DNA of 64,000 nt. Origin: Oceanipulchritudo coccoides (GTDB taxonomy: Bacteria; Verrucomicrobiota; Verrucomicrobiia; Opitutales; Oceanipulchritudinaceae). Positions 8,052-53,049 of the stretch are shown one piece after another. Within the stretch, counting starts at the first letter, position 1. Each line of letters starts with the position of its first letter. A program made the position numbers and the translations under genes. The DNA is taken from the NCBI RefSeq assembly GCF_010500615.1, contig NZ_JAAGNX010000001.1, forward strand, positions 821,531 to 885,530, given 5' to 3'. Under the pieces are notes generated by a model that saw nothing but the letters and a program-made list of their open reading frames with translations, was not told where the DNA came from and made no database searches.

Positions 8052-8065
8052 ATCAATTGCAAAAA

Positions 8066-12427: not shown

Positions 12428-12445
12428 ATTTTGCCTGAAATAGCG

Positions 12446-12463
12446 AAAGTTCCTTGACAGCCG
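12446..12463 (+). promoter_or_regulatory. Shared 18-base promoter element, copy 2
   Basis: Identical over 18 bases to 8066-8083, with TTGACA at 12454-12459. It lies 72 bases before the 12536 start. As in the other copy, no good -10 hexamer follows at normal spacing. Confidence 0.55.
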
Positions 12464-12535
12464 TAACTGTTGTGCAAGCATCGAAATTGATTCTGAGACT
12501 TTCCTCACGGATTCATTCCAACCCTACATCGACAA

Positions 12536-13318: not shown

Positions 13319-13348
13319 TCAGGTCTCTGTTTCCATCGCTTTAAATAA

Positions 13349-13383
13349 GGGGCCGGGTCGTGGAACGGCCGGGTCCCTTTCCT
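13349..13383 (+). terminator. Rho-independent terminator after the PEP-CTERM repeat protein
   Basis: GGGGCCGGGTCGT pairs with ACGGCCGGGTCCC (one mismatch, two G-U pairs) around a GGA loop, then TTTCCTTT. It lies 30 bases after the stop codon. Confidence 0.78.
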
Positions 13384-13502
13384 TTAAGAAATTCCAGTTT
13401 ATTTCAAATGGCTTTATCGGACGAGTAATTGCCGATATCAACAAGGTCAGGACCGCTCGGAAGCTCGGCTGATTAATCTCCACAACCAAACCCCAAATTA
13501 AA

Positions 13503-16500
13503 ATGAAAAAAATCCTCCTGACGTTAATCCCGGGTGCCCTGCTGGGTACTTTTCTGCATGCGCAAGACGCGACTGCGGATGAACAAGACATAATTGAGCT
13601 GAGTCCCTTTGTGGTCGAGGCCTCTGAAGATGTCGGCTACATGGCGACCAACACGCTGGCGGGAACCCGCCTGAAGACGCAGCTGAAGGAAGTCGGCGCG
13701 GCGGTATCGGTCTACACTGGCGAATTTCTTGAAGACATCGACGCGACCGATATCGAGGACATCCTGACCTACACGACCTCGACCGAGGGCGGGGGAATTG
13801 ACGGGAATTACTCGTCGATCTCTGGCCGCAACGACGATGAAGTGCGAGGGAACCCCTCGGCCATCAACCGTGTGCGGGCCTTGTCGAACGCGACCCGGAC
13901 AAGAAACTATTTTGAGTCCGCTCTGCCGTCGGACGGCTACAATTTCAGCTCCGTGACAATCAGCCGCGGACCGAACGCGGTCCTCGCCGGTATCGGCAGC
14001 GCAGGAGGGATTATCGACGCTGCTCTGGAGCAGGCCGTTTTCAGGGATTCGACCCGGATTGAATTCCGCTACAGCGAGCACAATTCGCACCGTGAGGAAT
14101 TCCACTGGAACCGCGTCTTGATCGACGACTTCCTGGCCTTCCGGATCGACGCGATGCATGAGGACCGGAATTTCCGCCAGGAGCCGGCCTTTGAGAAAGA
14201 CCGCCGTATTTACATGGCCACTACAGTGAAGCTCCGCAAAAACAACCCTAAGGCATTCTGGGGCGCCACGACAATCCGTGCCAACGCGGAATTCGGCCAG
14301 ATCGAGGGAATTCCCCCGACTACCCTGACGCCGGACTGGAGCATGCAGTCATGGTTTCCGGGAACGGATCCCCGGGATGGTGAACCCTACGAAGCCCCGT
14401 ACTGGTCATACAATGGTGCAACGCGCACGACCCTTGATGCAGACGGAAACGAGATTGCCAACAATCTGACGATTCCCGGGTTCCCCTTGTTCCGGAACGT
14501 AGCGCTTGTCTTCGCCGATCCAAGCTCACCTGAGGCAAACATGAACCTTCCCGGCGACCTGGCCGGTATTCAGGGTCACCAAGGGACCATTCCCGGTGGA
14601 GCGGGCAGTCCCCGCGGAGCGCTTCGCTCAACCGGTGACCTCTGGCGCAATGGGGAGGATGACGGTTTTCAACGCACGCGTTTGTTCGACCGCAAGATCT
14701 TTGATTTCTACAAAAACCTGATCTCTGGAAAATTTGACAGCCGGGCGCAGGACTTCGAGGCCGTTGATATCCGCATGGACCAGCTGCTGATGAATGGAAA
14801 CGCCGGCTTTGAGATTGCCTACAATTACCAGTATTTCGAACAGATGCGCGATTTGCCGGTTCGCGGGCAGGATGAAATTTCCATCGATACAAATTCCATT
14901 CTCTCCGTGCGCACGGATGCTTTCAATACCGGTGGAGCGCTTGAGGATCAGTTTATCCCAAATCCGAATTACGGCCGTCCCTTTATCGTGACCCGTGACG
15001 CTTTCCGCGACCAGACCAACGTGGACGAGTTTGAATCCTTCCAAGCCTCGGCCTTTGTGAAAAAGGATTTCACCAATTCTGATTCATGGCTGGGTCGTCT
15101 TCTGGGACGCCACACTCTGTCCGGACTCTTCTTTGAAACGACCCAGTTCACGAGCAATCGTGGCTATTCCAGCACCTGGGCCGGTGGTGACCTGGACATG
15201 GAAACAATCCTTGGTGCAGTTCCCGGGCAGGGAGCAGGACTCCGGGTAAATGGGGCCTTCTACATTGGGGATTCCCTTGTTGGTGTTGAAAGGGAAGAAG
15301 ATGTCCGGCTCACGCCAATTACTTCAAACCGTCCAGTCATCGGCCAGACCTACACCCTCCGGGTATGGGATCCGGAGGCCCGGCAGTTTGTCACCGGCAC
15401 CTCGACTCCGCAACGCATCCTCACAACGGCGCGCGACCAGCGGGAAGAGGTTGAATCCGTGGCACTCGCCCTGCAGAGTTTCTTCCTCGACGACCACATT
15501 GTGACCCTCTTCGGATGGCGTGAAGACTCCTCGGATGCCTTCACTTCCTCGGATCCCAGCCCGCTTGCGGATGGCAATCTGGACATGTCCGACTTCCGGT
15601 TGTTCCCGGCCTCCTCCCAGACCAAGGAGAGCTTGACGAAGAGCGTTGTCGTGAAATTCCCGGAAGCCTACCTCTTCGACCTGCCGTTTGACTCGGATCT
15701 CCGGTTCTACTGGAATACCTCCGAAAACTTCGATCCCGTTGGCCAGCGCCGCAATGTCTGGAACGAGGAAGTCGGATCACCGGATGCGGAGACAGAAGAA
15801 TACGGAATCATGTTGAGCTTGTTTGATGGCAAGCTGGACCTCCGCGTGAACCGCTTCGAAACAACGATCAACAACGTGAATGTCCGTGGTGATGTGGCCA
15901 TCGATAATCCCTTCGGGTATATCAACACGATGATCAACCGGATGGTCAATGCCCACAATGAAGGCCTCACTCCTCAGGATCCGTCGCTGGATCCCCTTGA
16001 TGAAGACGGCCTGGCCTGGTCGAACGGTCCCAACTCCTTCCAGACATTCGAGGAGGTAGCACGGGCCTTTTATGAATCCATTCCCCTGCGCATGCAGGCC
16101 AACATTGGCCCCGAGAACAACTTTGAACCACGGTTTGAAGGCACGGGTGACTCCTTCGCCTACATAGCAGACAATGTCACGGGGGTTGCTTCCCTGAGCG
16201 ATGTGGTTTCTGAAGGCTGGGAATACGAGCTTGTCTGGAATCCAACCCGCGCGTGGAGAATCTCCCTCAATGCGGCCAAGAACGAGGCTGTTCTGGCCAG
16301 TATCGCAAAGGAGGAAGTGGCTTTTTCCGAGGCATGGCTGGAGCGGGCTGGTTCCATCTACAATGGGGATCTCCTTAATATCCACCGCCAGCCCAACTCA
16401 AATGACGGTGCCTGGATGGAGCAGTACAGAAGTTCTACCGTGCGCCAGAATATCACACAGGCGGCCCTTTCCGGTCAGAAGACCCCGGAAATCCGCAAAT

Positions 16501-16877
16501 GGCGGGTCAACCTGGTCACACGCTACCGCTTCATGGATGGATTCCTTGAAGGATTCAACGTCACGGGCGCGGTTCGCTGGCAGGATAAAATCGGGATTGG
16601 GTATCCGCTGATTACTGGATTGGACGGCAGTCTGATTGGGGATGTCGACAATCCGTACTACGGGGATGACCAACTGAGCATCGATCTCGGAGTCGGGTAC
16701 GGCACGACCTTCAAGGCCTTTGGCCAGAAGATCGACTGGACCGTCCGCCTGAATGTCCGCAACGCCTTTGCGGATGATGAGCTGATTCCGATTATTGCCA
16801 ATGCCGATGGCAGTATTGGTACGGCCCGGATCCCTCCGGAGAGGACGTGGAGCATCTCCAACTCCTTCCGGTTCTAG
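13503..16877 (+). CDS. TonB-dependent outer-membrane receptor (Opitutae type)
   Basis: 1124 residues. A signal peptide ends near HAQD, followed by the mature start IIELSPFVVEASEDVGY and a plug domain (about 50-190) with TLAGTRLKT, VSVYTGEFLEDI and VTISRGPNAVLAGIGSAGGI. The rest is a large beta-barrel ending in the aromatic terminal strand WSISNSFRF, as expected for BAM insertion. It probably carries oligosaccharides across the outer membrane with TonB/ExbBD energy, none of which is encoded here. No SusD-like partner is adjacent, as usual outside Bacteroidota. Its place between the repeat proteins and the glycosidase operons suggests it serves this locus. It is followed by a strong terminator. 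Confidence 0.92.
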   Translation: MKKILLTLIPGALLGTFLHAQDATADEQDIIELSPFVVEASEDVGYMATNTLAGTRLKTQLKEVGAAVSVYTGEFLEDIDATDIEDILTYTTSTEGGGIDGNYSSISGRNDDEVRGNPSAINRVRALSNATRTRNYFESALPSDGYNFSSVTISRGPNAVLAGIGSAGGIIDAALEQAVFRDSTRIEFRYSEHNSHREEFHWNRVLIDDFLAFRIDAMHEDRNFRQEPAFEKDRRIYMATTVKLRKNNPKAFWGATTIRANAEFGQIEGIPPTTLTPDWSMQSWFPGTDPRDGEPYEAPYWSYNGATRTTLDADGNEIANNLTIPGFPLFRNVALVFADPSSPEANMNLPGDLAGIQGHQGTIPGGAGSPRGALRSTGDLWRNGEDDGFQRTRLFDRKIFDFYKNLISGKFDSRAQDFEAVDIRMDQLLMNGNAGFEIAYNYQYFEQMRDLPVRGQDEISIDTNSILSVRTDAFNTGGALEDQFIPNPNYGRPFIVTRDAFRDQTNVDEFESFQASAFVKKDFTNSDSWLGRLLGRHTLSGLFFETTQFTSNRGYSSTWAGGDLDMETILGAVPGQGAGLRVNGAFYIGDSLVGVEREEDVRLTPITSNRPVIGQTYTLRVWDPEARQFVTGTSTPQRILTTARDQREEVESVALALQSFFLDDHIVTLFGWREDSSDAFTSSDPSPLADGNLDMSDFRLFPASSQTKESLTKSVVVKFPEAYLFDLPFDSDLRFYWNTSENFDPVGQRRNVWNEEVGSPDAETEEYGIMLSLFDGKLDLRVNRFETTINNVNVRGDVAIDNPFGYINTMINRMVNAHNEGLTPQDPSLDPLDEDGLAWSNGPNSFQTFEEVARAFYESIPLRMQANIGPENNFEPRFEGTGDSFAYIADNVTGVASLSDVVSEGWEYELVWNPTRAWRISLNAAKNEAVLASIAKEEVAFSEAWLERAGSIYNGDLLNIHRQPNSNDGAWMEQYRSSTVRQNITQAALSGQKTPEIRKWRVNLVTRYRFMDGFLEGFNVTGAVRWQDKIGIGYPLITGLDGSLIGDVDNPYYGDDQLSIDLGVGYGTTFKAFGQKIDWTVRLNVRNAFADDELIPIIANADGSIGTARIPPERTWSISNSFRF

Positions 16878-17064: not shown

Positions 17065-19218
17065 ATGAAAAACGGACGATTCACACTCCCCGCCGAAGCG
17101 GGCATGGAAAAGGAAACCCTCGAACTCGCTGAAAAGTGGGGGGCAGACGCCATTCGCGACAGCGATGGGACGGTGTTATCACCGGAAATCACGGAGCTGG
17201 ACTTTGATATTCTGTCCACCCTCTGCATGATCCGGGCCGACCAGGATTGGAACCGGTCCCATAAGCATCACTGCCAACAGAAGTATCTCATGTCGGACCC
17301 GCGGACGGCGGAAGCGGACACGCTGGTGATCGACCTGATGAGCGGGTACAGCAAGGACCAGTTTGAGCTGGATACGGTAAACGATGCAAAAAAGTACTGG
17401 GATGTCATCGACCGGACAACCGGGGAGGTCGTCGATCCCTCGAAATGGAGCCTTTCCGCGGCGGACGGCACTGTGACCATAACGGGTGCGAGCCCATGGC
17501 ATGTCTACACGGTCAATTTCCTCGTTTTCCAGATTTGGGAGAGCACCTCGATGTACAACCACATCACGAACAACTGGACGAGCCCGCACCAGCTGGGCAT
17601 TGATCCTTACCAGCCGGAGACCCGGGCGCACCTGCTCGAGTACTTGGACAAGTGGCTGGACGAGCATCCGAATACGGACATCGTGCGATTCACCTCAGTG
17701 GCCTACCAGTTCCCCATCGTGAAAAACGAGGCCTTGGAGACCCGCTGGCAGGACTGGTGCAGCTATCGTGACTGTATTTCCGCGAAGGCCCTTGATGATT
17801 TTGAAAAGAAAAAGGGGTACCGTCTGCGCTCTGAGGATCTCGTCGATGCTGGCTACTACAATGCCACGGACCGTCTGCCAACGAAGGCCTACCGCGACTG
17901 GGTCGATTTCGTAAACGAGTTCACGACCGATTTTGCCCGCGAATGGGTGGAGAAAGTCCATGCCCGCGGCAAAAAGGCAGTCATGTTTTTCTGCGACCAT
18001 TGGATTGGTACTGAGCCTTACGGGGAGCGCTTTGAGAGCATGGGCTTTGATGGACTGGTCAATCCGGTGATCAACGGGACCGAACTCCGCCGCATGTCGG
18101 ACGCCCCGACCTCGATCAGTAAGGAAGTCCGTTTTTACCCCTATTTCTTCCCGGTCAATCTGGTTGGGGAACCATTGTTTGTCGGGGAGGGCGGAGATCC
18201 CGTACGCGAGTGCAAGGAGTACTGGGCCAAGGCACGCCGGGCCATGTTGAGAAAGGGCGTGGACCGGATCGGCTACGGAGGTTACCTCAATCTTGCCGTC
18301 AAGTTTCCGGAGTTTCTGGATTCCGTTGAGGTCGTTGCAAACGAGTTTCGCCAGATTCTTGATCATGCTGACAAGGGGGCCGCCTATGCCATGCCCGGCA
18401 AGGTGGTGATCGTGACCGCATGGGGAAAACTCCGCTCATGGATGATCGGGGAAGACTGGCCATCCGGAGGATTTCTGGAAGCTCTTTCCGGACTTCAGGT
18501 GGATGTCCACTTCATGAGTTTTGATGAACTCAAGAAGGATGGTCTGCCAGAGGATACATCCGTTCTGATCAATTACGGCAAGGCCAGATCATCCTGGAGC
18601 GGCGGGACTTACTGGACAGATCCCAAGGTGGTCGAAACCGTACGCGCCTTCATTGCGGGCGGAGGGGGCTTTTTTGGAGTCTGCGAACCAACTGCGATTG
18701 AGCATCAGGGACGCCTCCTGCAGCTTGAGGATGTCCTCGGCGTCTGGCGTTCCACTCCGTCGAATGTTCGAAGCAATAATGTCATTACCGGAAAGCGCCC
18801 ATCCCAGCACTTCATTACAGCGGATGTGAATGGCACGGTTGATCTCGGTGAGCTGGCCGGGGTGACCTATGCGGCAAACCCCGAGGTGGAAGTCCTGAGT
18901 ACCAAAGGTGACAATATCACGCTCGCAGCCAACCGCTTTGGCAAGGGCCGGTCGGTCTACATGGCGGGCTTCACGCTGAGCATTGACAACATCCGCCTGG
19001 TTCAGCGCGCCCTGTATTGGGCTGCTGGAAAGGATAAGGAATTCACGCGCTGGAACACCTCCAATCCTGCCACGGAATGCGCAGCTTTTGTCGAGGCGGG
19101 ATATTGCGCAGTGACCAACCAGTCTGCTGACGCACAGAAAACGACCCTCTATGATGGCGACGGGAACGGGCAGGAAATCTCACTTGATCCATACGAGATG
19201 AAGTGGGTGAAGATTTAA
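17065..19218 (+). CDS. GH112 beta-galactoside phosphorylase (galacto-N-biose/lacto-N-biose or galactosyl-rhamnose type)
   Basis: 717 residues matching family GH112, whose members cleave a beta-galactosyl disaccharide with phosphate to give alpha-galactose 1-phosphate and the partner sugar. Typical stretches are MIRADQDWNRSHKHH, SPWHVYTVNFLVFQIWESTS, NNWTSPHQLGIDPY and MFFCDHWIGTEPYGERF. D311 in the last motif aligns with the proposed catalytic acid D313 of the Bifidobacterium longum enzyme. The C-terminal half has a glutamine-amidotransferase-like fold region (VRAFIAGGGGFFGV). There is no signal peptide, so it acts in the cytoplasm on imported disaccharide. Known GH112 acceptors are GlcNAc, GalNAc and L-rhamnose; the sequence does not decide which applies. 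It converges with the GH42 gene, 28 bases apart. Confidence 0.9.
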   Translation: MKNGRFTLPAEAGMEKETLELAEKWGADAIRDSDGTVLSPEITELDFDILSTLCMIRADQDWNRSHKHHCQQKYLMSDPRTAEADTLVIDLMSGYSKDQFELDTVNDAKKYWDVIDRTTGEVVDPSKWSLSAADGTVTITGASPWHVYTVNFLVFQIWESTSMYNHITNNWTSPHQLGIDPYQPETRAHLLEYLDKWLDEHPNTDIVRFTSVAYQFPIVKNEALETRWQDWCSYRDCISAKALDDFEKKKGYRLRSEDLVDAGYYNATDRLPTKAYRDWVDFVNEFTTDFAREWVEKVHARGKKAVMFFCDHWIGTEPYGERFESMGFDGLVNPVINGTELRRMSDAPTSISKEVRFYPYFFPVNLVGEPLFVGEGGDPVRECKEYWAKARRAMLRKGVDRIGYGGYLNLAVKFPEFLDSVEVVANEFRQILDHADKGAAYAMPGKVVIVTAWGKLRSWMIGEDWPSGGFLEALSGLQVDVHFMSFDELKKDGLPEDTSVLINYGKARSSWSGGTYWTDPKVVETVRAFIAGGGGFFGVCEPTAIEHQGRLLQLEDVLGVWRSTPSNVRSNNVITGKRPSQHFITADVNGTVDLGELAGVTYAANPEVEVLSTKGDNITLAANRFGKGRSVYMAGFTLSIDNIRLVQRALYWAAGKDKEFTRWNTSNPATECAAFVEAGYCAVTNQSADAQKTTLYDGDGNGQEISLDPYEMKWVKI

Positions 19219-19246: not shown

Positions 19247-21262
19247 TCAGACCTTTTTCAGGATAACTGACTGGACGGACTCCATGGAGATCGTCCCAGT
19301 CAGTTTTTCCTGTGTCAGCAGGTCAATGTAAGTTCCCTCGGGCAGAGTCACCTCAACGGCCTCGTAGTTGTGGTTCATTACAAAAAGGAACGGTTCTCCA
19401 TCCTTTGAACGAACGACTGCCTCAACATTGTCGGGTGCCTCGACAACCGGTGAGACCCCTTGGTCTGCGCAGACCTTCTTGAGGAAATTCCGCAGGAACC
19501 CGTGCTCCGGCATGGTGGCGACATAGTAGGCTTTGCCTTTGCCGAATTCGTTCACGGTCAAGGCCGGTGTGCCTTTGAAAAAGTCGCTACCGTATACCGC
19601 CAACGGCTGGGCTGTGCCGAGTTGGAGGATGTCGCACCACAACCTTGATTCAAACTCACCTGTCAATTCCTCCAGTGTCCCGTTCATGACAAGGCTGTTA
19701 TTGACATAGGGTTTCATGGCCTCGAATTCCTCGACCTTCAGGCCCATCAAGTCACTGAGTGGACCCGGATAGCCGCCCTCGAATACCTCGTCGAACTCGT
19801 TCACTGCCCCGCTGAAGAAAGTGGTGATGAAGGTTCCTCCCTCGGAGACAAATTTCTCAACTGACTCCTTGAAGCCGGGCTTCACCATGTAGAGCAGTGG
19901 AGCGATGACCACCTTGTACCGGTTCAGGTCGCGGTCACAGGGAACGATGTCCGTCGTGATATTCTGTTCAAAGAGCGGGTAGTGGTAGTCCTTCAACATC
20001 TGGAGGTAATCCAGCAAGGCTGTTGGGCCAGGGGTGAACTCAACCGTCCACCAATTGTTGTAATCCATGACAATGGCCACCTCTGCCTGCACGTCTGCCC
20101 CGACGACCTCCTTGAGGCCGGGCAGTTCATTTCCGAACTGGCACATCTCACGGAAGACGCGGGAGTTCTCCCCGATGTGCGGGACCATTGCCGAGTGAAA
20201 TTTCTCGGATCCATGGACAGACGCACGCCATTGGAAAAAGAGGAAGCTATCCGAGCCGTGTGCCATTCCCTGGTGGCTCCACAGGCGCATCACACCGGGC
20301 TTCTTGTTTACGTTGGCAAGTCGCCAGTTGACCTGACTAGGGGCCTGCTCGAGCAGGACAAATGGCTGGTCCTTGAGTCCGCGCATGATGTCATGGCTGA
20401 GGGCGGCCTCACCCGGGTGGTTCGTTATCTTCGGGTCAGGGAAGGAACTGACGGAAATGAAATCAATCAGGTCGGCCCAGGCGAAGTAATCGAGCATCTT
20501 GAACTCGTACAGGAAGTTGGTCGTGATTGGGATGTCCGGTGTAATCTCGCGCAGGATCTTGATCTCTTCACGGGCGACTTCCATGTAGCATTCATTGGTG
20601 AAGCGTTTCCAATCGAGCAGCAGACTCGTATTCACCTGATGGGCCGTCTTCATCGGCGGCATCAGCTCGTCCCATTCGTAGATGTTGTTTCCCCAAAAAT
20701 GCAGGCCCCATTTTCGGTTCATGTTTTCGCAGGTCCCGAAGCGATCCTTGCACCAATCCCGGAATTTGCGGGCGGTGATCTCGCTGTAGTCATAATTCAC
20801 AAGCTGTGAGAGCTCGTTGTTGACATGCCACATCGCCAGGGCCGGGTGCTTTTGGTAGCGCTCAGCAATTGTTCTGACAAGTATATGGCTCAGCTCACGG
20901 TACTTCGGGCTGTTTGGATTGAAGGTCTGACGCGATCCATGATTGTAGCGGATCCCGTTGGCATCGACGGGCAGGATCTCCGGATACTTTTTTGCCATCC
21001 AGGCAGGGGTCGAGGCCGTGGCCGTTCCGAGGTCGGCGAAGATGCCGTTTTTGGCGAGCGTGTCCATTATGTCATCAAGCCACTCAAAGGTCCATGTGTC
21101 CTCATTCGGTTGAAGCTGTGCCCAGCTAAACACGTTGATGGTGACGATGTTGACGCCGGCCTTCTTCATCAGGCGCATGTCTTCGAGCATGACCTCCCGC
21201 GGGAAATGCTCGGGCGTGTAGTCGCCGCCGAAATACAGATTGGGAAGCACGAACTTTTTCAT
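19247..21262 (-). CDS. GH42 beta-galactosidase (cytoplasmic)
   Basis: 671 residues, normal length for GH42. The TIM barrel (about 1-390) carries YFGGDYTPEHFPRE, FSWAQLQPNEDTWTFEWLD, acid/base E150 in MWHVNNEL and nucleophile E305 in PFVLLEQAPSQVNW. An amidotransferase-like trimerisation domain (about 395-600) and a small C-terminal beta domain follow. There is no signal peptide, so it removes terminal beta-galactose from imported oligosaccharides. It is the last gene of the minus-strand operon that starts with the GH50-like gene; the 98-base gap before it is the largest in the operon, so it may have an extra promoter. It overlaps functionally with the neighbouring GH112 enzyme: both would act on cytoplasmic beta-galactosides. 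Confidence 0.93.
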   Translation of the reverse strand: MKKFVLPNLYFGGDYTPEHFPREVMLEDMRLMKKAGVNIVTINVFSWAQLQPNEDTWTFEWLDDIMDTLAKNGIFADLGTATASTPAWMAKKYPEILPVDANGIRYNHGSRQTFNPNSPKYRELSHILVRTIAERYQKHPALAMWHVNNELSQLVNYDYSEITARKFRDWCKDRFGTCENMNRKWGLHFWGNNIYEWDELMPPMKTAHQVNTSLLLDWKRFTNECYMEVAREEIKILREITPDIPITTNFLYEFKMLDYFAWADLIDFISVSSFPDPKITNHPGEAALSHDIMRGLKDQPFVLLEQAPSQVNWRLANVNKKPGVMRLWSHQGMAHGSDSFLFFQWRASVHGSEKFHSAMVPHIGENSRVFREMCQFGNELPGLKEVVGADVQAEVAIVMDYNNWWTVEFTPGPTALLDYLQMLKDYHYPLFEQNITTDIVPCDRDLNRYKVVIAPLLYMVKPGFKESVEKFVSEGGTFITTFFSGAVNEFDEVFEGGYPGPLSDLMGLKVEEFEAMKPYVNNSLVMNGTLEELTGEFESRLWCDILQLGTAQPLAVYGSDFFKGTPALTVNEFGKGKAYYVATMPEHGFLRNFLKKVCADQGVSPVVEAPDNVEAVVRSKDGEPFLFVMNHNYEAVEVTLPEGTYIDLLTQEKLTGTISMESVQSVILKKV

Positions 21263-21360: not shown

Positions 21361-22836
21361 TCAGGCATTTCTGTGTCCGTCGGGAATGGTTTCGCCATGG
21401 ATTTCTTCCAGAAGGGCATCAAGGGCGGCGACGATGTCGGGATGTTTTTCCGCCACATTTGCCCGCTGCCCGATATCGGTCCCGAGATCGTAGAGCTGCG
21501 GGCTCATCAGGTTGCCTGTTTCGATCCCTTTCGATTCCATCATTGGCGGTCCTTCATGGGGTGGAATGTAGACCCAGTTGCCCTGGCGCACCACGGTCTT
21601 GGTGCCAAACCCTTCCGTCACGAGATTATCCCGGCCAACCGGCTCGAGCCCCTGCAGCTGCGCGCTCATGTCAAGGCTGTCCGCCGTCTCGGACCGTGGA
21701 ATGGTCACCCCCGCCATTGTGGCGAAGCTCGCAAGGAAATCGGCATGGCTGATCAGGGCAGAATTCTCTCCCGGGGCAACTCTCCCCGGGGCCCGGAGGA
21801 TCATCGGGACACGGGTGCCACCGTCGAAAAGGCTGTATTTTCCCCCGCGCAGAGGCCCGGCCGGCTTGTGGTCACCACACAGTTCGCCGGCCTGGTCGAG
21901 ATACCCGTCGTCGATCACTGGCCCATTGTCGCTGGAAAAGACAACGATGGTGTCCTCATCAATGCCTTCCGCTTTCAGGTGTGCCAGAACCTCCCCCACA
22001 CACCAGTCGAGCTCGGCAATGACATCCCCGCGGGGACCCTTTTCGGTCGACCCGGCAAAGCGCGGGCTGGGAATGCGGGGAACGTGCGGCTGGTGCAGCG
22101 CGTAATACAGAAAGAAGGGATTGTCCCTGTTGCGTGTAATGAAATCCTTGCTACGCTCGAGGAAGATGTCGGTCATGGTCTCGTCATCCCACTCGGCGGC
22201 CTTGCCTCCACGGCAGAAACCGATCCGGCCAACACCGTTGACAATGGTGTCGTAATGTTGAGCATCGCTGTGGCTCATCCGGAGCAGCTCGGGGTTGTCT
22301 TTTCCGGTCGGAACTTCCGGAAAGGGATTCTCGCCACCGTAATACACCTCAAGCGGGTCGGACGGGTCAAGGTTTTCGACCGTGCGCCCGTCCACATAGA
22401 CACAGGGCACGCGGTCGTTTGTGGCAGCCATGATGTAGGATTCATCAAATCCAACATCCAGCGGGGTGGGATGGATTTCCCCGTTCCAATTGATTTTCCC
22501 GTCCCCAAGGCCAATGTGCCATTTGCCAATCACCGCAGATCTATAGCCAGCCTCCTTCAATGTGCCCGGCAGGGTGCGCTCGTCCTTCCCGATGATCATC
22601 GGGGCGTCGCCCTGCAATATCTTCGCCCTTGGATTACGCCACGGATAGCACCCTGTCAGCAGGCTGTATCGTGAAGGCGTGCAGGTCGCAGCTGTGGCAT
22701 AGGCATTGTTGAAGCGCTGCCCCTCCTGTGCCATCTTATCAAGATTCGGGGTGGGGATGCCGGATGCCCCGTAACAACCGAGATCTCCAAACCCCAAGTC
22801 GTCGGCATAGATGATGATGAAGTTTGGTTTTTTCAT
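21361..22836 (-). CDS. Sulfatase without signal peptide (CTPSR), probably cytoplasmic
   Basis: 491-residue S1 sulfatase. It begins directly with MKKPNFIIIYADDLGFGDLG, so the catalytic fold starts at residue 4 and no export signal exists. C52 in ATCTPSR is the formylglycine site; GKWHIGLG and VFSSDNGPV supply further active-site residues. The sequence closely follows the exported sulfatase at 29340 (both share CTPSRYSLLTG, then RN, a short run and AP(M/L)II). The start is supported by an AGGGA just upstream and a 23-base gap to the previous gene. It sits between an exported sulfatase and cytoplasmic GH42 in the minus-strand operon, so desulfation of imported oligosaccharides is a reasonable inference. 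Confidence 0.9.
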   Translation of the reverse strand: MKKPNFIIIYADDLGFGDLGCYGASGIPTPNLDKMAQEGQRFNNAYATAATCTPSRYSLLTGCYPWRNPRAKILQGDAPMIIGKDERTLPGTLKEAGYRSAVIGKWHIGLGDGKINWNGEIHPTPLDVGFDESYIMAATNDRVPCVYVDGRTVENLDPSDPLEVYYGGENPFPEVPTGKDNPELLRMSHSDAQHYDTIVNGVGRIGFCRGGKAAEWDDETMTDIFLERSKDFITRNRDNPFFLYYALHQPHVPRIPSPRFAGSTEKGPRGDVIAELDWCVGEVLAHLKAEGIDEDTIVVFSSDNGPVIDDGYLDQAGELCGDHKPAGPLRGGKYSLFDGGTRVPMILRAPGRVAPGENSALISHADFLASFATMAGVTIPRSETADSLDMSAQLQGLEPVGRDNLVTEGFGTKTVVRQGNWVYIPPHEGPPMMESKGIETGNLMSPQLYDLGTDIGQRANVAEKHPDIVAALDALLEEIHGETIPDGHRNA

Positions 22837-22859: not shown

Positions 22860-24356
22860 CTACCTTACGGCCGATTCCAAGGTTGCCATCAGCTGTTTAA
22901 CGACCGGGGCATGTTCCTTGGAATTGACGAGGTTCTTGGATTCAACCTCAAGTACATTGTCAGACATATCAAAGAGCGCCCGGGGACTGAAGTCGCTGAA
23001 GCTCTTCTGGTTTTTGACATTCACGATCAGCTTGAATTTTTCATCGCGGATCGCGTAGTTGTTTTTCGTGGCGGATTGATGAAGCAGGAAGTCGTGTCCT
23101 TTTGCCTCCGGTTCGCCAAGGAAGAGGGGGGCGAGGTTGTTGGAATCCAGGACCTTCGATGTGTCCAGCTCCTGCCCTGATACGGCTGCCAGTGTAGCCA
23201 CAATGTCATGCGTCACGACGAGTTCCGAGGATTCTGTTCCCGGCTTAATTTTTCCTGGCCAAACCGCGATGAATGGCACGCGGTGTCCGCCCTCATAAAT
23301 GCCTCCCTTGATACCGCGAAACCCGTTGGTGGAATCATACCCCAATTTCTCCATGGCAGGATCCGGCACAAGGCCCCCATTGTCGGAAGTCAGGATGAAC
23401 AATGTGTTTTCGGCCATGCAGTTTTCTTCCAAGGCACGACGAAGGATGCCAATCTGGACATCCAGTTCCCGGACCATGTCCCCGTGAACACCCGGTGTGG
23501 AGTTGGCGATTTTCACTCCATCCAGCTCTGCTGGCGGGGTATGGGGGATGTGCACGGCCTGCGTGCTGTAATGCATGAAGAACGGTTTATCGGGGTGGTT
23601 TTTCCGGTGATCCTCAATGAACTTGACCGCCTTGCTTGTGAGGACTTCTCCTGCGAGGGAAGGATCCCAGTTGGAGTCGCCTCTGCCGGCCCGGTCCTTT
23701 TCCTTGCGCGAGATGTAATACATCGTCTGGACCGGTGTTAACTGAGTGAGAATGGAATCCTCCCCGAGAGGCATCCATTTTTTGTTTTCGTAAAAGGCGA
23801 AAGGTTCTCCCTGGATCCCCTGAGGCAGCTCAAGTGAATAATCAAATCCGTAATCATTGGCAGCAATGGCGAGCTTCGAGATATCGGCCCCGTCCAGCCC
23901 CCATCCGTCATACAGTTCGTCACTTCCCTCCTTGAACAGGCGTCCTCCCAGGCCCCATTTGCCAAGAAAGGCTGTCCTGTAGCCGGCTTCCTTAACTATA
24001 CGGGCACCTGTTGTGTACTTCGGATCAATTCCGGTTTTTCTTTGCACACCCCAAACTCCATACTGGCTGTAGCAGCGGAAAGGGTAGTTGCCCGTCATGA
24101 CGCTGAACCGGGAAGGCGCACAGAGGGCCGCCGAGGAGTGGGCATCGCTGAAACGGATGCCTTCACGGATCAAGGCGTCCATGTTCGGGGTCGGGACGAT
24201 CGGCTCCTTTCCGGTTCGCAGGCGGTGATAGTAGGCGATGTCTCCCGGCCCAATATCATCGGCAAAGACGAAGACAACATTGGGCAGCGAGGTCGCAAAC
24301 AAGCTCCCGGAGAGAAGGCAAAAGGCTGCGATCGTTAATGATTTCAACAGTTTCAT
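22860..24356 (-). CDS. Secreted sulfatase (CAPSR)
   Basis: 498-residue S1 sulfatase. A signal peptide ends near SLFA, then PNVVFVFADDIGPGDIAYYH, ALCAPSRFSVMTGNYPFR with formylglycine site C79, FLGKWGLGG (Gly in place of the usual His of GKWH) and LTSDNGGLVPD. The ADDIGPGDIAYY start and the GKWGLGG motif set it apart from the other sulfatases here and suggest a different subfamily and substrate position. It is the third gene of the minus-strand operon, 24 bases after the transporter and 23 bases before the cytoplasmic sulfatase. Confidence 0.9.
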   Translation of the reverse strand: MKLLKSLTIAAFCLLSGSLFATSLPNVVFVFADDIGPGDIAYYHRLRTGKEPIVPTPNMDALIREGIRFSDAHSSAALCAPSRFSVMTGNYPFRCYSQYGVWGVQRKTGIDPKYTTGARIVKEAGYRTAFLGKWGLGGRLFKEGSDELYDGWGLDGADISKLAIAANDYGFDYSLELPQGIQGEPFAFYENKKWMPLGEDSILTQLTPVQTMYYISRKEKDRAGRGDSNWDPSLAGEVLTSKAVKFIEDHRKNHPDKPFFMHYSTQAVHIPHTPPAELDGVKIANSTPGVHGDMVRELDVQIGILRRALEENCMAENTLFILTSDNGGLVPDPAMEKLGYDSTNGFRGIKGGIYEGGHRVPFIAVWPGKIKPGTESSELVVTHDIVATLAAVSGQELDTSKVLDSNNLAPLFLGEPEAKGHDFLLHQSATKNNYAIRDEKFKLIVNVKNQKSFSDFSPRALFDMSDNVLEVESKNLVNSKEHAPVVKQLMATLESAVR

Positions 24357-24380: not shown

Positions 24381-25883
24381 TTAAACCTTGCCCCGGCGTT
24401 CCTCGAGCTGTCGTCGAGTTTCCTCAGCCTTGGCCTTTGTAATTGGATAAAGCGTCAATAATGCGAGTGCGGTGGCGTTCGGGATCATCCCTCCAAGGAC
24501 CATTACGAGGCGCATGCCGAGGAAGGTGCTGGCGGTCTGGTTCCCGCCCAGTTCGGAATCAAACCCGACCATGACCAGGGAGACACCGCCGATGAGCATG
24601 GCGGCTGACACAGCTGCTTTTGTGACCCAGCCGAAAACGGCAGCAAACATTCCCTCACGGCGCTCGTTGTGCTTGAATTCGTCGTCGTCGCAGATGTCAG
24701 CCATCATGGACTGCATGACTGTTCCGACTGCGATCCAATAAAGTGAACCGAAAATCGCGTCGACAAAGATGAAATGGTGATTGCCAGGGTTGTAGACAAA
24801 CCAGCGGACAATTCCATTGAAGATAACAAGACAATAGACAATACGGAGTGTAATTAATTTACTGGTACGCTTGCTCAGCCAGAGGATGACGGGGATTCCG
24901 CCAAATCCGCACACCGCGTAGGCCATGGATAAATACCATTTCCAGAGGGAGCCCGTGACAATATCCCCGTCGAACATGTAGTAGACGAGAAGGTAGTAAT
25001 CGAGGGTGCTTCCGAAGAAGCCGGCGATAATCTGCAGAAGGGTGAGGGAAATCAGCACCGCGAAGGCCCGGTTACTGAAAGTCTGGCCCACTGTTTTCCA
25101 GAAGCCTATCCGTTTAACGAGGTGAGCCTCCTCTTTAACCTTCACTTTATAGTAGCGTTCCCGGCCGAAGATTCCGGGCATCATGCCAAAGACCAGGATC
25201 ATCAGGATGGCCACGCCCCACATGACCGCCCGGATTGAGTTTACCTGGGTTCCGAAAAGTCCCCATGCAACCAGCATTCCCGCGACGGGGATCAGGCCCT
25301 GGTAGGTGAATTCGGATACTTTCGTCCACAGGGTGACATAGCCCATGACCGTTGTTCGCTCGTTGTAATTGGGCGTGAGCTCATACGTCATGCTGGTGAA
25401 AGGGACCGCGAATATAGTGAAGCAGGTATAGAAAATCAGGGAGGCAATGAGGAACCAGGCCATGATTCCGCCTTCGCTCCATGTTGTGGGCACCATCCAG
25501 ATCATCCCGAAGGAAAGGCTCATCAAAATGGCACCCAGCACGATAAAGGGACGCCGCCTTCCCCACCTGGAGTGGAACCGGTCGGATATGCGACCCATGA
25601 TGGGGTCGGTAAAAGCGTCCCAGATACGTGGTATGGCGAGGGCCAGCCCAAGAAGGGCAGGGTTCACGCCAAGGATCATGTTAAAGAAGGGCATCGCCGT
25701 CGCCTTGACGGTGGTATTCCCGTGAAACATGGTCATGCCCCCCATCCCAACAAGGACCTTTTCGCGGAATGGAACAACGTTGACTTCCTTTGTTTCCGGG
25801 GATGCTGCGCCGGGAGTATCTGATGAAACGGCCGCAGTCGGTTGAGGGAGCGGATTATTTTCTGAAGGGGTCTTGTCTGGCAT
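24381..25883 (-). CDS. GPH-family (MelB-like) sugar:cation symporter
   Basis: 500 residues from the ATG at 25883. The N-terminal tail of about 45 residues is polar and proline-rich, then about twelve hydrophobic segments follow. Family landmarks are IPRIWDAFTDPIMGRISDRFHSRWGRRRPFI between segments 2 and 3 and PFTSMTYELTPNYNERT in the middle. Relatives carry glycosides or uronides with Na+ or H+ across the inner membrane. The reading frame stays open upstream to 26204, but that part lies inside the GH50-like gene and is not protein-like, so the internal ATG is chosen. It lies 34 bases after the GH50-like gene and 24 before a sulfatase, so it is the operon's likely importer of di- or oligosaccharides for GH42 and GH112. 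Confidence 0.92.
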   Translation of the reverse strand: MPDKTPSENNPLPQPTAAVSSDTPGAASPETKEVNVVPFREKVLVGMGGMTMFHGNTTVKATAMPFFNMILGVNPALLGLALAIPRIWDAFTDPIMGRISDRFHSRWGRRRPFIVLGAILMSLSFGMIWMVPTTWSEGGIMAWFLIASLIFYTCFTIFAVPFTSMTYELTPNYNERTTVMGYVTLWTKVSEFTYQGLIPVAGMLVAWGLFGTQVNSIRAVMWGVAILMILVFGMMPGIFGRERYYKVKVKEEAHLVKRIGFWKTVGQTFSNRAFAVLISLTLLQIIAGFFGSTLDYYLLVYYMFDGDIVTGSLWKWYLSMAYAVCGFGGIPVILWLSKRTSKLITLRIVYCLVIFNGIVRWFVYNPGNHHFIFVDAIFGSLYWIAVGTVMQSMMADICDDDEFKHNERREGMFAAVFGWVTKAAVSAAMLIGGVSLVMVGFDSELGGNQTASTFLGMRLVMVLGGMIPNATALALLTLYPITKAKAEETRRQLEERRGKV

Positions 25884-25917: not shown

Positions 25918-27948
25918 TTATTCAGTTGAATAGCGAAGCGGATACATATGCGAGGAGACATCCCTGATCGCTTCGGTGAGAGTCTTGTACGGGCGATCGA
26001 CAATGTTGACAAATCCAATACGGTAGTTTTCGCCATCGTAGCGCCCTGTTGTGGGATGATCGGCCCACTTGAACCAGTGGACCCCGACAAAGTTTGGATC
26101 GGCTGCCGCTTCCATGGCATATGTCTTATACAGTCTGGCCTGGTCCTCCAATGAGTCGCAAGGGACCAATCCGGACCCCCATACACCGTGGGAGCCAGTG
26201 CCAAAGTGGAATTCCCCGATCAGGATCGGGCGGTCCACCTCCGAAGTGGTCTCGATGTCGTGGATGGAATTCTTGTAGATGTTGTAGCTCATCACATCCA
26301 CGTGCCGGGAGGCGGCTTTCTGGACAATCGGGTTTTTTCCGTCGTAGATTGCCCCGTGAAACCGGCAACCCAGATAAAGGTGACCGGGCATGAATTCCTC
26401 CAAGGCAGCCTTGCATTGGGAGAAATAGGTATCCGCATGATGATCACAAAATTCGGCAAGATCCTGCAGGTAGGCTGGTGTTTCCTTTTCCTTGGGCAAA
26501 ACACCGACCTCCTTGAACCTTTTGTAGTTGGTTTCCCATGCTGTGTTTAGTGAATCAATTTTTCCATACTTCTTTTTGAAGAGGTTGATCATGGCGTTCT
26601 TGGCGGGTACGGATGAATCCAGTCCAATGACCTCCCGGGCCACCTGGATGCCCCTTCCCCAATGGAGCTCGTTGTCAATGAACACGCCCAGGTTCCAAGG
26701 GTCTCCGGCGTAGGATTTCGCCGCCTCTTTCACATCCCTCACCAGGCTTTTCTGGAACTCGGGCGAGAATGGGTCTGGTATCTTGTCCAGTTTCCCCAGT
26801 TCCTGCAGGCGAGGGTGGAGGATCAGGGTGTAGGGCACCATCCCGTGGCCGAGAACCGATTCAACTGACCACGCCCCGGTCGTGTTCAGCCCCCAGGAAC
26901 GCATCCTGCCAAACGTCACTTGCTGGTTTGCTTCCCTCCAGTTGGCCCCGTATTTTCGGTGCAGGTTGGCCAGGGTGAAATCATATCCGCGCTTGAAGTT
27001 TTCCTCGCGCCAGAATTCCGCTCCCGTGAGCTTTGTGAAAAAGTGTTCGCGCCCGGAAGTCGGCGTCATAGCCCCTCCTCCAACGCCAGTCACCCCGAGC
27101 GACCAGAAAAGGTATCCGTCGGGGTCAACAAACCACCATTTGCCATCGACCTTTTCGACTCTGAAGTGTCCGGTGGCAGTGAGCCGGGGCCCGTCCATCC
27201 ATCCACCATACTCGGATAATCCCTTTAGCACCGGTTGACCGGTGAATTTTTCAAGATCACGTTTCCCGTCAGCCGTGAGTTCGTCAGGATCGGTCACCCG
27301 GCCCTCCCACTTCCCGTCAATCAATTGCCCCATTGAATCAATGAGCGGTTGCGGGAGGTCATCAGGGGTGAGCTTGTCCGTCGTGTAAGCACCGGATCCA
27401 TGGGGTGTGGAGAGGTGAACTGTCCTTATTTCGCCGGTCAACCCCTTCCAGGATATCTTCAGTTCGACGCTTCTCATTTGTGAGGGATCGAGGTATCGCC
27501 AGTTGCTCTGGTGCCCACCAGGGAGGCCGCGGATCCGCCCGAATGTTTTCGTCCAAGGATGGTCTTCAGGAAAATAATCCCGATTGATCAGGATCCTCAT
27601 CAAGCGGTCTTCGCCACCCGCCACAAAATAGCGCCCGTTGATGTAGTGGTCGTTTTTCTCCTTCTCGCTGGTCGCGTGCAGACGGATATCCAGTTCAGTA
27701 CCCGTAAGGTTCTCCAATTGGGTCGCCATATGGGAGAAATCAGACAAATCCAACGGAGATTTTTGGAAATCAAACAAAATTCTCCCTTCCCCTTGTTCGC
27801 CTCTCAGGGTCACCTCATAGCGCTCCGGGGACAGTTCCTTGAGGCATAGGTCACCGCCGCTTTTTGGGGGAGTGTGACCGGCTGCCGCAGGTATCGCCGA
27901 AAGGCTCAGGATTCCAAGAATAGAAAGGGTCAGATGGATTTTACGCAT
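25918..27948 (-). CDS. Secreted GH50-like (beta-agarase family) glycosidase
   Basis: 676 residues from the ATG at 27948. A signal peptide (ends near PAAAG) is followed by a beta-sandwich carbohydrate-binding-like domain (about 35-180, with IRGLPGGHQSNWRYLDP) and a TIM barrel from about 245. WWFVDPDGYLFWSLGVTGV opens the barrel. E427 in GVFIDNELHWG is the likely acid/base and E579 in PILIGEFHFG the likely nucleophile. Their 152-residue spacing is near that of the GH50 agarase Aga50D (about 161). GH50 enzymes release disaccharide from agarose, but relatives outside the characterised group may act on other galactans. An upstream extension to 28035 lacks a signal peptide and was not used. First gene of the operon, divergent from the GntR/LacI regulator. 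Confidence 0.75.
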   Translation of the reverse strand: MRKIHLTLSILGILSLSAIPAAAGHTPPKSGGDLCLKELSPERYEVTLRGEQGEGRILFDFQKSPLDLSDFSHMATQLENLTGTELDIRLHATSEKEKNDHYINGRYFVAGGEDRLMRILINRDYFPEDHPWTKTFGRIRGLPGGHQSNWRYLDPSQMRSVELKISWKGLTGEIRTVHLSTPHGSGAYTTDKLTPDDLPQPLIDSMGQLIDGKWEGRVTDPDELTADGKRDLEKFTGQPVLKGLSEYGGWMDGPRLTATGHFRVEKVDGKWWFVDPDGYLFWSLGVTGVGGGAMTPTSGREHFFTKLTGAEFWREENFKRGYDFTLANLHRKYGANWREANQQVTFGRMRSWGLNTTGAWSVESVLGHGMVPYTLILHPRLQELGKLDKIPDPFSPEFQKSLVRDVKEAAKSYAGDPWNLGVFIDNELHWGRGIQVAREVIGLDSSVPAKNAMINLFKKKYGKIDSLNTAWETNYKRFKEVGVLPKEKETPAYLQDLAEFCDHHADTYFSQCKAALEEFMPGHLYLGCRFHGAIYDGKNPIVQKAASRHVDVMSYNIYKNSIHDIETTSEVDRPILIGEFHFGTGSHGVWGSGLVPCDSLEDQARLYKTYAMEAAADPNFVGVHWFKWADHPTTGRYDGENYRIGFVNIVDRPYKTLTEAIRDVSSHMYPLRYSTE

Positions 27949-28117: not shown

Positions 28118-29212
28118 ATGAATAATCCGATCGACAGCAACCGCCCTGAACAGGTGACAACAAAGACGAACCGGCGGGATTTTGCCAGCGAGCAGATCAA
28201 ACATTACATACGCTCCCATCGAATGCAGCCAGGGGAATTGCTGCCGCCGATTCGCGCCTTTTCGGAACACCTGGATATCAGCCGTGATGCGGTCTGGCGT
28301 GCCTTGCGGGTCTTGCAGGAGGAAAAGTGGGTCCGTCCGAAGGCAAACAAGCGCTATTTAGTCTCGGATGACGTTTACACGGAGATTCTGCGCTCCCTGC
28401 GGGTACGCGCGGTCTTTTCGGGAAACAAGTACATTTATTTCTCCGGTTTTCGCCGCCTTGCGGATGCCTTGAAGAAGGAGTGCGACTATCACAATCTGGA
28501 ACTTGAGATCAATCTGCTCCCGCTTGAGGAGGAGCCTCCGGAATCCATCTGGAAAGATTGTGATGCCTTGCTGATTGGCAGTCGCAGCAGCAGCGCACTC
28601 CTGAAGCACAGCAAGGGCTTCGATGTTCCGGTGATCGGGCTCGATGCGGATTACAGCGACCGCTACTTTGCGAATATTGTCACCGATCACCATCAGGGTG
28701 GGCGCATGGCAGCCGAACGCCTCATCCTTCAGGGATCAAAAAGCATTTGTATCGCTCACTTCGGCGGGTCTGAGAATAATCCGAGGATCAAGGCCCGCAT
28801 TGATGGCTTTCGTCTGGCCTGGCTCGAAGCTGGCCGCCCCGAGGACTCCCTGACCGTCGCGCCCATTGAATGGGATGAAAATAATTTCAAGGTTGCCCTG
28901 AACATACAGAATTACCTGAAGTCGCACCCCCCGAAAAGTGACTTCTTTGTCACCGACGGCCGGCTCGCCGTGACCTTCCTCGAGGTGCTTGGGTTCATGG
29001 ATGTGTCCATTCCTGAGGGGCTCCGGCTCATCGGGTATGACGGCGCACAGATGGGGGGTATGGCCAGTCCGCCGATGACCACCATCCAGCAGGATATGGA
29101 TAAGATTGCCCAGATGGCCATTGCCCGCGTCGGGCAGATTGCGGAGTCGTCTGAGGGGGAATCCCCCTTGGTGAGGGTTGCCCCGCTCCTTATTGAACGC
29201 CTCTCCGGATAG
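28118..29212 (+). CDS. GntR-HTH/LacI-sensor transcriptional regulator
   Basis: 364 residues. The N-terminal winged helix (about 20-85) is GntR type: ASEQIKHYIRSHRMQPGELLPPIRAFSEHLDISRDAVWRALRVL. The C-terminal 270 residues are a LacI/periplasmic-binding sensor (DALLIGSRSSS, VPVIGLDADYSDRYFANIVTDHHQGGRMAAERL, GLRLIGYDG). This AraR-like chimera usually binds a sugar and acts as repressor. It is transcribed divergently from the GH50-like operon and lies before the nine-gene sulfatase operon, so it is the best candidate for local control of both. The TTGTCTGA boxes directly upstream are its most likely operator. Confidence 0.88.
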   Translation: MNNPIDSNRPEQVTTKTNRRDFASEQIKHYIRSHRMQPGELLPPIRAFSEHLDISRDAVWRALRVLQEEKWVRPKANKRYLVSDDVYTEILRSLRVRAVFSGNKYIYFSGFRRLADALKKECDYHNLELEINLLPLEEEPPESIWKDCDALLIGSRSSSALLKHSKGFDVPVIGLDADYSDRYFANIVTDHHQGGRMAAERLILQGSKSICIAHFGGSENNPRIKARIDGFRLAWLEAGRPEDSLTVAPIEWDENNFKVALNIQNYLKSHPPKSDFFVTDGRLAVTFLEVLGFMDVSIPEGLRLIGYDGAQMGGMASPPMTTIQQDMDKIAQMAIARVGQIAESSEGESPLVRVAPLLIERLSG

Positions 29213-29289: not shown

Positions 29290-29339
29290 AGTTGCGTAGC
29301 GAACGGATGACAGGAAAATGCGCGTATGGAGGAGAAAGA

Positions 29340-30926
29340 GTGAAGGGGAGGAATCTGAAGAAAGTGACCTGGGAATGCTGTTTTGGGATGGGCCTGTGGC
29401 TGTTTGGATGCGCATCGCTTTTGGGAGTGGGGTCGCCGAACATCATAGTGATATATGCGGATGACGTTGGGTACGGGGACCTTGGGAGTTACGGTGCGAC
29501 GGGTGTGGACACGCCGAATCTGGACCTGCTTGCTAAAGGCGGATTACGCTTCACATCGGCGTATGCGGCTTCCTCTACCTGCACCCCATCCCGTTATTCC
29601 CTGCTGACCGGGGAATATGCCTTCAGGAACAAGGAGGCGCACATTTTGCGTGGCAACGCGCCGTTGATAATCGACACCGGGAAAGCCACGCTACCCTCGT
29701 TATTAAAGAGTCGAGGCTACGTGACCGGGCTGGTTGGAAAGTGGCATCTTGGCCTTGGCGGGCAGGGTGAGCCGCTGGATTGGAACGGGGAGATTGCGCC
29801 TGGCCCTCGAGAAGTGGGATTCGACTATTCATATCACATGGCGGCGACGGGTGACCGAGTACCGAGTGTGTATATCGAGAACGGGCGGATTGTGGATTTG
29901 GATGCGGAGGACCCGGTTGAAGTCAGCTATCAGGACCCGGTTGGGACAGACCCGACAGGCCACACTCATCCCGGGCTGTTGAAGAACCAGGCCGACTATC
30001 AGCATGCCTATACAATCGTTGATGGGACGAGCCGGATCGGATATATGAGCGGGGGGAATTCCGCCCGATGGACCGATGAGGAATTGCCGGACATTTTTTT
30101 GGGAAAGGCGGTTGAATTCATTGAATCGAACAAGATGAATCCCTTTTTTCTGTATTATGCGACCCATGAAAACCATGTCCCGCGAATTCCGCACCCACGC
30201 TTTCGCGGCTCAAGCGGGTTGGGAGTACGCGGTGATGCGATTGTGCAGATGGACTGGGGGGTTGGAATTCTGCTGGAAACCTTGAATCGGCTCGGGCTGG
30301 AAGAAAACACGCTTATTATTTTCTCAAGCGACAACGGGCCGGTGCTCTTTGACGGGTATTATGATGGAGCCTATGAGATGAATGGCGACCACCGTGCATC
30401 GGGCCCATGGCGTGGCGGCAAATACAGTGCGTGGGAAGGTGGGACCCGCATGCCCTTTATTGTTTCGTGGCCTGGAGCAATCGCGCCGGGAGTGACGGAT
30501 GCCCTGTTCAGCCAGGTTGACCTGCTGGCCAGCCTTGCTGCCCTTGCTGGCGCGGAAGTCCCGGAAGGGGAAGCACGTGACAGTTTGAATATGATCGAGA
30601 CCCTGACTGGACGGTCTCAGACCGGGCGGGAGTATCTGGTCCAGCAGGGAGTTGGAATTGAATCCCTCCGTGATGGGCCGTGGAAATATGTCCCGAAGGG
30701 AGTCATGAGGGACCGCAGGAAAATTGGCATTGTAGACAAGCAGAGTATTTCCGCGCCCGGCCTCTTGTATTATCTTCCGGAAGACCCAGGCGAGCAGAAC
30801 AACCTCGCGGGGTTGTATCCCGAGAAGGTGAAGAAAATGAAATCGCTTCTCGAGCGTGAGCTGGGCGGGATTGGTCACGATGACAAGGAAGCGGACCTGA
30901 TGGGAGGAGCGATTGAACGACCCTGA
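29340..30926 (+). CDS. Secreted sulfatase (CTPSR), first gene of the nine-gene operon
   Basis: S1 sulfatase, about 528 residues from a GTG at 29340, chosen because GGAGGAGAAAG stands just before it and because the result is a clean N-terminus with a signal segment (CCFGMGLWLFGCASLLGVGS). Starts at ATG 29307 or TTG 29292 are possible but have no ribosome-binding site. PNIIVIYADDVGYGDLGSYG and SSTCTPSRYSLLTGEY follow, with formylglycine site C81, GKWHLGLG and IFSSDNGPV. It is a paralogue of the signal-less sulfatase at 21361, so one desulfation step may exist both outside and inside the cell. It lies 18 bases before the next sulfatase. Confidence 0.9.
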   Translation: MKGRNLKKVTWECCFGMGLWLFGCASLLGVGSPNIIVIYADDVGYGDLGSYGATGVDTPNLDLLAKGGLRFTSAYAASSTCTPSRYSLLTGEYAFRNKEAHILRGNAPLIIDTGKATLPSLLKSRGYVTGLVGKWHLGLGGQGEPLDWNGEIAPGPREVGFDYSYHMAATGDRVPSVYIENGRIVDLDAEDPVEVSYQDPVGTDPTGHTHPGLLKNQADYQHAYTIVDGTSRIGYMSGGNSARWTDEELPDIFLGKAVEFIESNKMNPFFLYYATHENHVPRIPHPRFRGSSGLGVRGDAIVQMDWGVGILLETLNRLGLEENTLIIFSSDNGPVLFDGYYDGAYEMNGDHRASGPWRGGKYSAWEGGTRMPFIVSWPGAIAPGVTDALFSQVDLLASLAALAGAEVPEGEARDSLNMIETLTGRSQTGREYLVQQGVGIESLRDGPWKYVPKGVMRDRRKIGIVDKQSISAPGLLYYLPEDPGEQNNLAGLYPEKVKKMKSLLERELGGIGHDDKEADLMGGAIERP

Positions 30927-30944
30927 GAATAGAGATAAACCACG

Positions 30945-35595
<4,651 letters not shown>

Positions 35596-35603
35596 TCCAG
35601 ACA

Positions 35604-36998: not shown

Positions 36999-37026
36999 TT
37001 CCACTCAAACCTTGAAAGACACAATT

Positions 37027-38487: not shown

Positions 38488-38512
38488 TTGAAAACTGTTA
38501 ACAGGAAAACCA

Positions 38513-39898: not shown

Positions 39899-39910
39899 AA
39901 TTATAAAATC

Positions 39911-41479: not shown

Positions 41480-41519
41480 AATTCCCCTTCCTGTAACACC
41501 TATTCGAAAGAATTGAATC

Positions 41520-42962: not shown

Positions 42963-43024
42963 GCCATTCGTGATACAGACGTCCACACCCCAATAGAATA
43001 CTCGAGATCATTTCCGACCGTATT

Positions 43025-45043: not shown

Positions 45044-45152
45044 AAATCAAAAATATTGTTGACTATCCGTATTTGTACCTGCGTAAATGTAACTGTTCCG
45101 GCTGTTGTTCAGTGGGAATACGAACCACATTCTCCAACCCTACTCAAAAATC

Positions 45153-49268: not shown

Positions 49269-49374
49269 GACAGGATTTGTCCGGAACAACCGGTAAACCG
49301 GGATATTAACCTCCCACAATAATTGCACGCAATCGCAGATTATTGTATTGACGAAAATCGGGCTTGGGGACGAG

Positions 49375-49402
49375 TTTTGTCTCTGAATCCGATAAGACAA
49401 AA
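49375..49402. promoter_or_regulatory. Perfect inverted repeat TTTTGTCT-N12-AGACAAAA just before the GH17 gene
   Basis: Arms 49375-49382 and 49395-49402 are exact inverted copies. The right arm ends three bases before the ATG at 49406, so a protein bound here, or a hairpin in the mRNA, would block the leader and translation start. The half-site TTTTGTCT matches the TTTTGTCTGA boxes upstream of other genes in the window. Confidence 0.55.
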
Positions 49403-49405
49403 GCC

Positions 49406-53031: not shown

Positions 53032-53049
53032 CTTTCGAAATTTCGATTC

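Follow-up and report, generated by a model that had tools for sequence, protein, structure and literature searches.

A GH112 phosphorylase gene in a sulfatase-rich locus of Oceanipulchritudo coccoides, with galactobiose as a candidate substrate

The locus and its GH112 gene

The stretch of 64,000 nucleotides analysed here (the window) harbors a GH112 gene that is real and intact (Table 1). Its product shows full-length matches to PF09508 (E = 1.4e-176), PF17385 (7e-63) and PF17386 (2e-15), all three LBP domains (N, M and C) are complete, and it scores 868.7 bits on the NCBIfam model TIGR02336 for a cut-off of 560.3. The only PDB matches are structures of the B. longum GLNBP (2ZUS/3WFZ, E ~1e-178), and Asp311 is the alignment partner of B. 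longum Asp313, the catalytic Asp of that enzyme. All 82 columns conserved in at least 97% of 147 GH112 proteins are kept, and no signal peptide was seen by eye in the first 45 residues, in agreement with the sequence-only reading of a cytoplasmic GH112 enzyme retaining its catalytic Asp. Presumably the protein releases alpha-Gal-1-P by phosphorolysis, in the same inverting reaction as the B. longum enzyme. The gene is the sole GH112 copy in the genome (3.52 Mb, 99.4% complete), and the family is uncommon among its kin, being found in 7 of 55 near relatives and, across the class, in 16 of 286 genomes. A Tyr that aligns with B. longum Cys236 was considered as a specificity marker and discarded, as Tyr is near-invariant there over the 147 proteins; 3WFZ, which carries this Tyr, is presumably a thermostability mutant.

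Opposite to GH112, a minus-strand run from 27948 to 19247 encodes successively a GH50 protein, a GPH symporter, two sulfatases and a GH42 beta-galactosidase, and leaves 29 bases between its end and that of GH112; GH42 and GH112 are convergent and do not form one operon. Signal peptides are present in GH50 and most sulfatases and missing in GH42, GH112 and the sulfatase at 21361-22836, which is possibly cytoplasmic. The symporter likely starts at the Met codon at 25883, just beyond the GH50 stop, and GH50 likely at the Met in 27948. GH50, absent from the genes listed by the sequence-only reading, was recognised through beta-agarases of the PDB (best match 5Z6P, E = 1.7e-82) and keeps both catalytic Glu. 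The window encodes 12 PF00884 sulfatases, 11 of which carry the C-x-P-S-R motif, and the coordinates bear out the earlier statement that a GPH symporter, GH42 and many sulfatases adjoin GH112. The same genome carries a GalK-GalT-GalE set, located beyond the window at about 35 kb on the upstream side of GH112.

Table 1. Positions, within the window, of the genes discussed in the text
Feature	Position	Strand	Remarks
GH2 beta-galactosidase	1777..4311	+	above the NCBIfam GalB (NF041463) cut-off
GH51-like (arabinofuranosidase-related) protein	4344..6842	+	H-type lectin domain
TonB-dependent receptor	13503..16877	+	plug domain; upstream of GH112, same strand
GH112 inverting beta-galactoside phosphorylase, predicted	17065..19218	+	717 aa, ATG start; cytoplasmic; catalytic Asp311
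GH42 beta-galactosidase	19247..21262	-	without signal peptide; convergent with GH112
Sulfatase (PF00884)	21361..22836	-	CTPSR motif; N-terminus without signal peptide
Sulfatase	22860..24356	-	CAPSR motif; signal peptide present
GPH-type sugar symporter (MFS_2)	24381..25883	-	listed ORF extends to 26204
GH50 (beta-agarase family)	25918..27948	-	exported; listed ORF extends to 28035
GntR-HTH / LacI-type sensor regulator	28118..29212	+	divergent from the GH50-GPH-sulfatase-GH42 run
Eight sulfatases	29292..44902	+	at 29292, 30945, 35604, 37012, 38513, 39911, 41520 and 43025; flank the LacZ-type GH2
LacZ-type GH2 beta-galactosidase	32413..35595	+	exported
Sulfatase-family protein	43025..44902	+	HEAT-like repeats; without C/S-x-P/A-S-R maturation motif
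Exported protein	45105..47711		868 aa; beside the sulfatase run; no Pfam match, no meaningful PDB match
GH17-family protein	49364..50671		near PDB 6FCG (E = 6e-127); other glucan possible
DabA-type inorganic carbon transporter subunit, proton-antiporter-like partner	51634..55539		with divergent LysR regulator

Clades of GH112 and signs of gene exchange

In an unrooted phylogeny of the 147 GH112 proteins (FastTree and IQ-TREE), the window protein belongs to a separate clade of 13 members (SH-aLRT 99 in IQ-TREE, 0.997 in FastTree), distinct from the GLNBP clade (SH-aLRT 98) and from the GalRhaP clade (100). Its companions there are a tandem pair of GH112s from a Sumerlaeota MAG and proteins from Sedimentisphaerales MAGs, from genomes G015 and G286, from another verrucomicrobial family (three genomes) and from the class of the Sedimentisphaerales (three genomes). 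The phylogeny proposed earlier, against GNB/LNB-type and galactosyl-rhamnose-type enzymes, thus leaves the protein outside both clades, and its sequence is not close to either kind of phosphorylase. Its closest relatives, at locus L010 of Sumerlaeota, are 68% identical, and it shares 43.7% identity with B. longum GLNBP and 42.3% with the single GH112 (L105, at 1.72 Mb) of genome G065, which we take to be Opitutus terrae and its protein to be Oter_1377.

Four columns (B. longum 161, 312, 336 and 360) hold three different near-fixed residues across the three clades; beside the catalytic Asp, at position 312, the residue is Cys in the window clade, Gly in GLNBPs and Asp in GalRhaPs. Judged from the alignment, these columns would lie at the ends of barrel-strand motifs. 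In 11 clade-diagnostic columns the window protein sides with GLNBP against GalRhaP. An insert after B. longum Pro365 is common to the window protein and GalRhaPs and missing in GLNBPs, and the main split of the unrooted tree leaves the window clade together with the GalRhaPs.

The protein thus resembles B. longum GLNBP (EC 2.4.1.211) in its three domains, its near-invariant residues including the catalytic Asp and its cytoplasmic location, but differs in identity, clade, neighbours of the catalytic acid and insert; moreover, the setting of the B. longum enzyme is HMO and mucin, whereas that of the window protein is a galactan neighbourhood. With Oter_1377 it shares the family, the order Opitutales, the insert and the side of the main split, whereas it is set apart by the low identity, the separate clade, other acceptor-side residues and the absence of GPH and GH50 neighbours in the clade of Oter_1377. 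Since Oter_1377 of Opitutus terrae is a characterised D-galactosyl-beta-1,4-L-rhamnose phosphorylase (EC 2.4.1.247; PMC8950772), a GH112 gene in Opitutales is no surprise in itself; the sequence-only reading had described the family as best known from host-glycan use by bifidobacteria and gut bacteria.

Two copies met in the survey (G112:C1:4172700-4174024 and G146:C140:45108-46434) are split over several reading frames, a pattern that gene decay or sequencing errors could produce. Several GH112s may also coexist in one genome: Lachnoclostridium phytofermentans has three characterised ones, and the gut bacterium Blautia schinkii (L080, 4602-12190) has two, one of which is placed near the window clade and adjoins a sulfatase and a radical-SAM/SPASM protein, possibly a sulfatase maturase. 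At L010 (Candidatus Sumerlaeota, 7012-15988), three consecutive GH112 genes follow a GH16 gene, out of five GH112s genome-wide.

The genes of the window may differ in their history. Its GH42 is 78-82% identical to the GH42 located directly upstream of GH112 in L011, L012, L234 and L236, whereas its GH112 is only about 52% identical to that of Sedimentisphaerales. Identities of about 80% for GH42 between Verrucomicrobiota and Planctomycetota, next to 31-53% for the neighbouring GH112, GPH and GH50, could reflect either unusual conservation or a recent transfer of this single gene. The GH112 itself may well have been exchanged, because of this discrepancy and because its closest relatives, in L010, have GH16 nearby and none of GPH, GH42 and GH50. 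We infer the extension to the window copy of arguments drawn from the clade's gene context.

Gene neighbourhood of the clade

Neighbours within 10 kb of GH112 were counted for every locus offering 6 kb or more of flank, giving 10 loci of the clade and 94 others. GPH symporters occur in 8 of the 10 clade loci versus 0 of the 94 others (Fisher p = 1.7e-10), GH42 in 7/10 versus 2/94 (p = 1.9e-7) and GH50 in 5/10 versus 0/94 (p = 2.7e-6). Loci of a same genus are not independent in these counts; by lineage, GPH is found in five of six, including that of the window, and one more locus, L159, ends too early to be scored. The order GH50-GPH-GH42-GH112 is present in Sedimentisphaerales (L011, L012) and in the verrucomicrobial loci L234-L236, and GPH-GH53-GH42-GH112 in L225-L227 (GH53, E = 2e-101 in L226). 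L161 and L159 have, instead of GH42, a leaderless GH43_24-type protein (PDB 6EUG, E = 3e-112 for L161) directly before GH112; sulfatases also occur near GH112 in L159, L161, L234 and L236. The recurring elements are the GPH symporter and, immediately before GH112, a galactosidase of the cytoplasm, whereas the galactanase partner is GH50, GH53 or a cytoplasmic GH43_24. The link to polymer breakdown suggested by the sequence-only reading is strengthened by the conservation of the GH50-GPH-GH42-GH112 block in other phyla. Judged by its tree position and these predicted neighbours, the clade is an uncharacterised GH112 branch with galactan-degrading genes alongside.

Entry of Gal-1-P through GalT and GalE finds its genes in the genome of the window and, after GH112, in L161. 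PF01087 GalT was not seen in 6 of the 11 clade genomes, so that Leloir entry is shown for part of the clade only.

The probable acceptor and its place in galactan breakdown

An amino-sugar acceptor, GlcNAc or GalNAc as in GNB/LNB-type enzymes, would fit the identity to B. longum GLNBP, the 11 columns shared with it and the score on TIGR02336, named 'N-acetylhexosamine phosphorylase'. However, the presumed O. terrae rhamnose enzyme also reaches 748 bits on this model, so the name is silent on the acceptor and reading the acceptor from it was abandoned. The position outside the GLNBP clade and the neighbouring galactan enzymes, with no hexosaminidase or N-acetylhexosamine kinase family seen among the window genes examined, make such an acceptor rather unlikely. 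L-rhamnose or a related deoxy sugar appears less probable again: the characterised enzyme of the same order (PMC8950772), the common insert and the shared side of the main split speak for a D-galactosyl-beta-1,4-L-rhamnose phosphorylase, but the 42% identity, the separate clade, the 11 columns that differ from GalRhaP and 25 GalRhaP-like loci that all lack both GPH and GH50 argue against it.

Agar or porphyran could also be the source, the enzyme then being an agaro-oligosaccharide phosphorylase that removes Gal from Gal-beta-1,4-(3,6-anhydro-)L-Gal ends. Consistent with this reading are a GH50 that retains its two catalytic Glu and accompanies GH112 in several loci, the abundant sulfatases and galactosidases, and a GH29-family gene found after GH112 in L011. 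It is nevertheless unlikely, since no GH117 alpha-neoagarobiose hydrolase was found in the genome of the window or in 10 other clade genomes by a search run without positive control (reference L245:17725-18804; PDB 3R4Y, E = 2.7e-189). In addition, the GH112-linked GH50s group in a clade separate from that of the characterised agarases, and GH53 and GH43_24 partners misfit agar. The GH43-like gene before GH112 in L161 and L159 was considered as a GH117 and rejected, for PDB comparison relates it to GH43_24 exo-beta-1,3-galactanases, which lowers a model based on agarotriose. The literature searched contained nothing on agarotriose with a phosphorylase, nor on neoagarobiose with GH117 and GH112.

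D-galactose is favoured as acceptor because the GH53, GH43_24 and GH50 partners, which belong to families acting on beta-1,4-galactan, on beta-1,3-galactan and as agarases, respectively, would share a galactosyl-galactose product, the common import across the clade loci. We thus propose, with a probability of about 0.47, that the window GH112 is a cytoplasmic galactobiose or galacto-oligosaccharide phosphorylase using D-galactose as acceptor; its substrate would most likely be galactobiose, Gal-beta-1,3-Gal or Gal-beta-1,4-Gal. The analysis establishes an intact gene with its catalytic residues, its place in the clade, the conserved neighbourhood and the GalK-GalT-GalE set, whereas acceptor, linkage, polymer and direction of the reaction are what we infer. 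Several observations weigh against this reading: the convergent orientation of GH112 and GH42 in the window, the L010 relatives with none of GPH, GH42 and GH50 nearby, the discrepancy in identity between GH42 and GH112, the 6 clade genomes in which PF01087 GalT was not seen, and GH50, which to our knowledge is characterised only as a beta-agarase. The earlier suggestion that a sulfated polymer yields a beta-galactosyl disaccharide that is then phosphorolysed stays plausible, given the GalK-GalT-GalE set and the sulfatase, GPH and GH42 neighbours; its choice of acceptor fares less well, as an amino sugar and rhamnose were named first, yet the protein lies outside both clades and its partners point to galactose.

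According to the galactobiose reading, the TonB-dependent receptor would ensure uptake across the outer membrane, sulfatases, GH2s and GH50 would desulfate and trim the material in the periplasm, and the GPH symporter would import short galactosides. In the cytoplasm, phosphorolysis by GH112 would proceed alongside hydrolysis by GH42, the former converting a non-reducing-end beta-galactosyl residue and phosphate into alpha-Gal-1-P and D-galactose. Each bond cut by phosphorolysis saves one ATP, because galactokinase is not needed for Gal-1-P; here Gal-1-P would directly enter GalT/GalE, and the galactokinase ATP would be saved for that residue. A sulfated arabinogalactan locus of Bacteroides plebeius similarly combines, in the part of the source available to us, sulfatases with a GH43_24 exo-beta-1,3-galactanase and galactosidases; that part places desulfation in the periplasm and, unlike the pathway proposed here, describes neither a GH112 nor a GPH step (PMC8406133).

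More broadly, and still more tentatively, the clade could represent a third acceptor class of GH112, formed by beta-galactobiose or galacto-oligosaccharide phosphorylases within an ATP-sparing GPH/GH42 galactan module of Verrucomicrobiota and Planctomycetota, here applied to a sulfated galactan. We know of no report of D-galactose-acceptor (galactobiose) activity for GH112, and 'galactobiose phosphorylase' had no mention in the open-access literature searched, which is not proof of novelty. The sugars of milk or mucin are probably not what the window enzyme attacks, but galactose-galactose sugars derived from (sulfated) galactans. If so, galactan breakdown outside animal guts would include a phosphorolytic step, GH112 would gain an acceptor with no earlier report in the open-access literature searched, and TIGR02336 would give an entire clade the wrong automatic name. 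Such an enzyme would also make defined galactobioses from Gal-1-P in one step.
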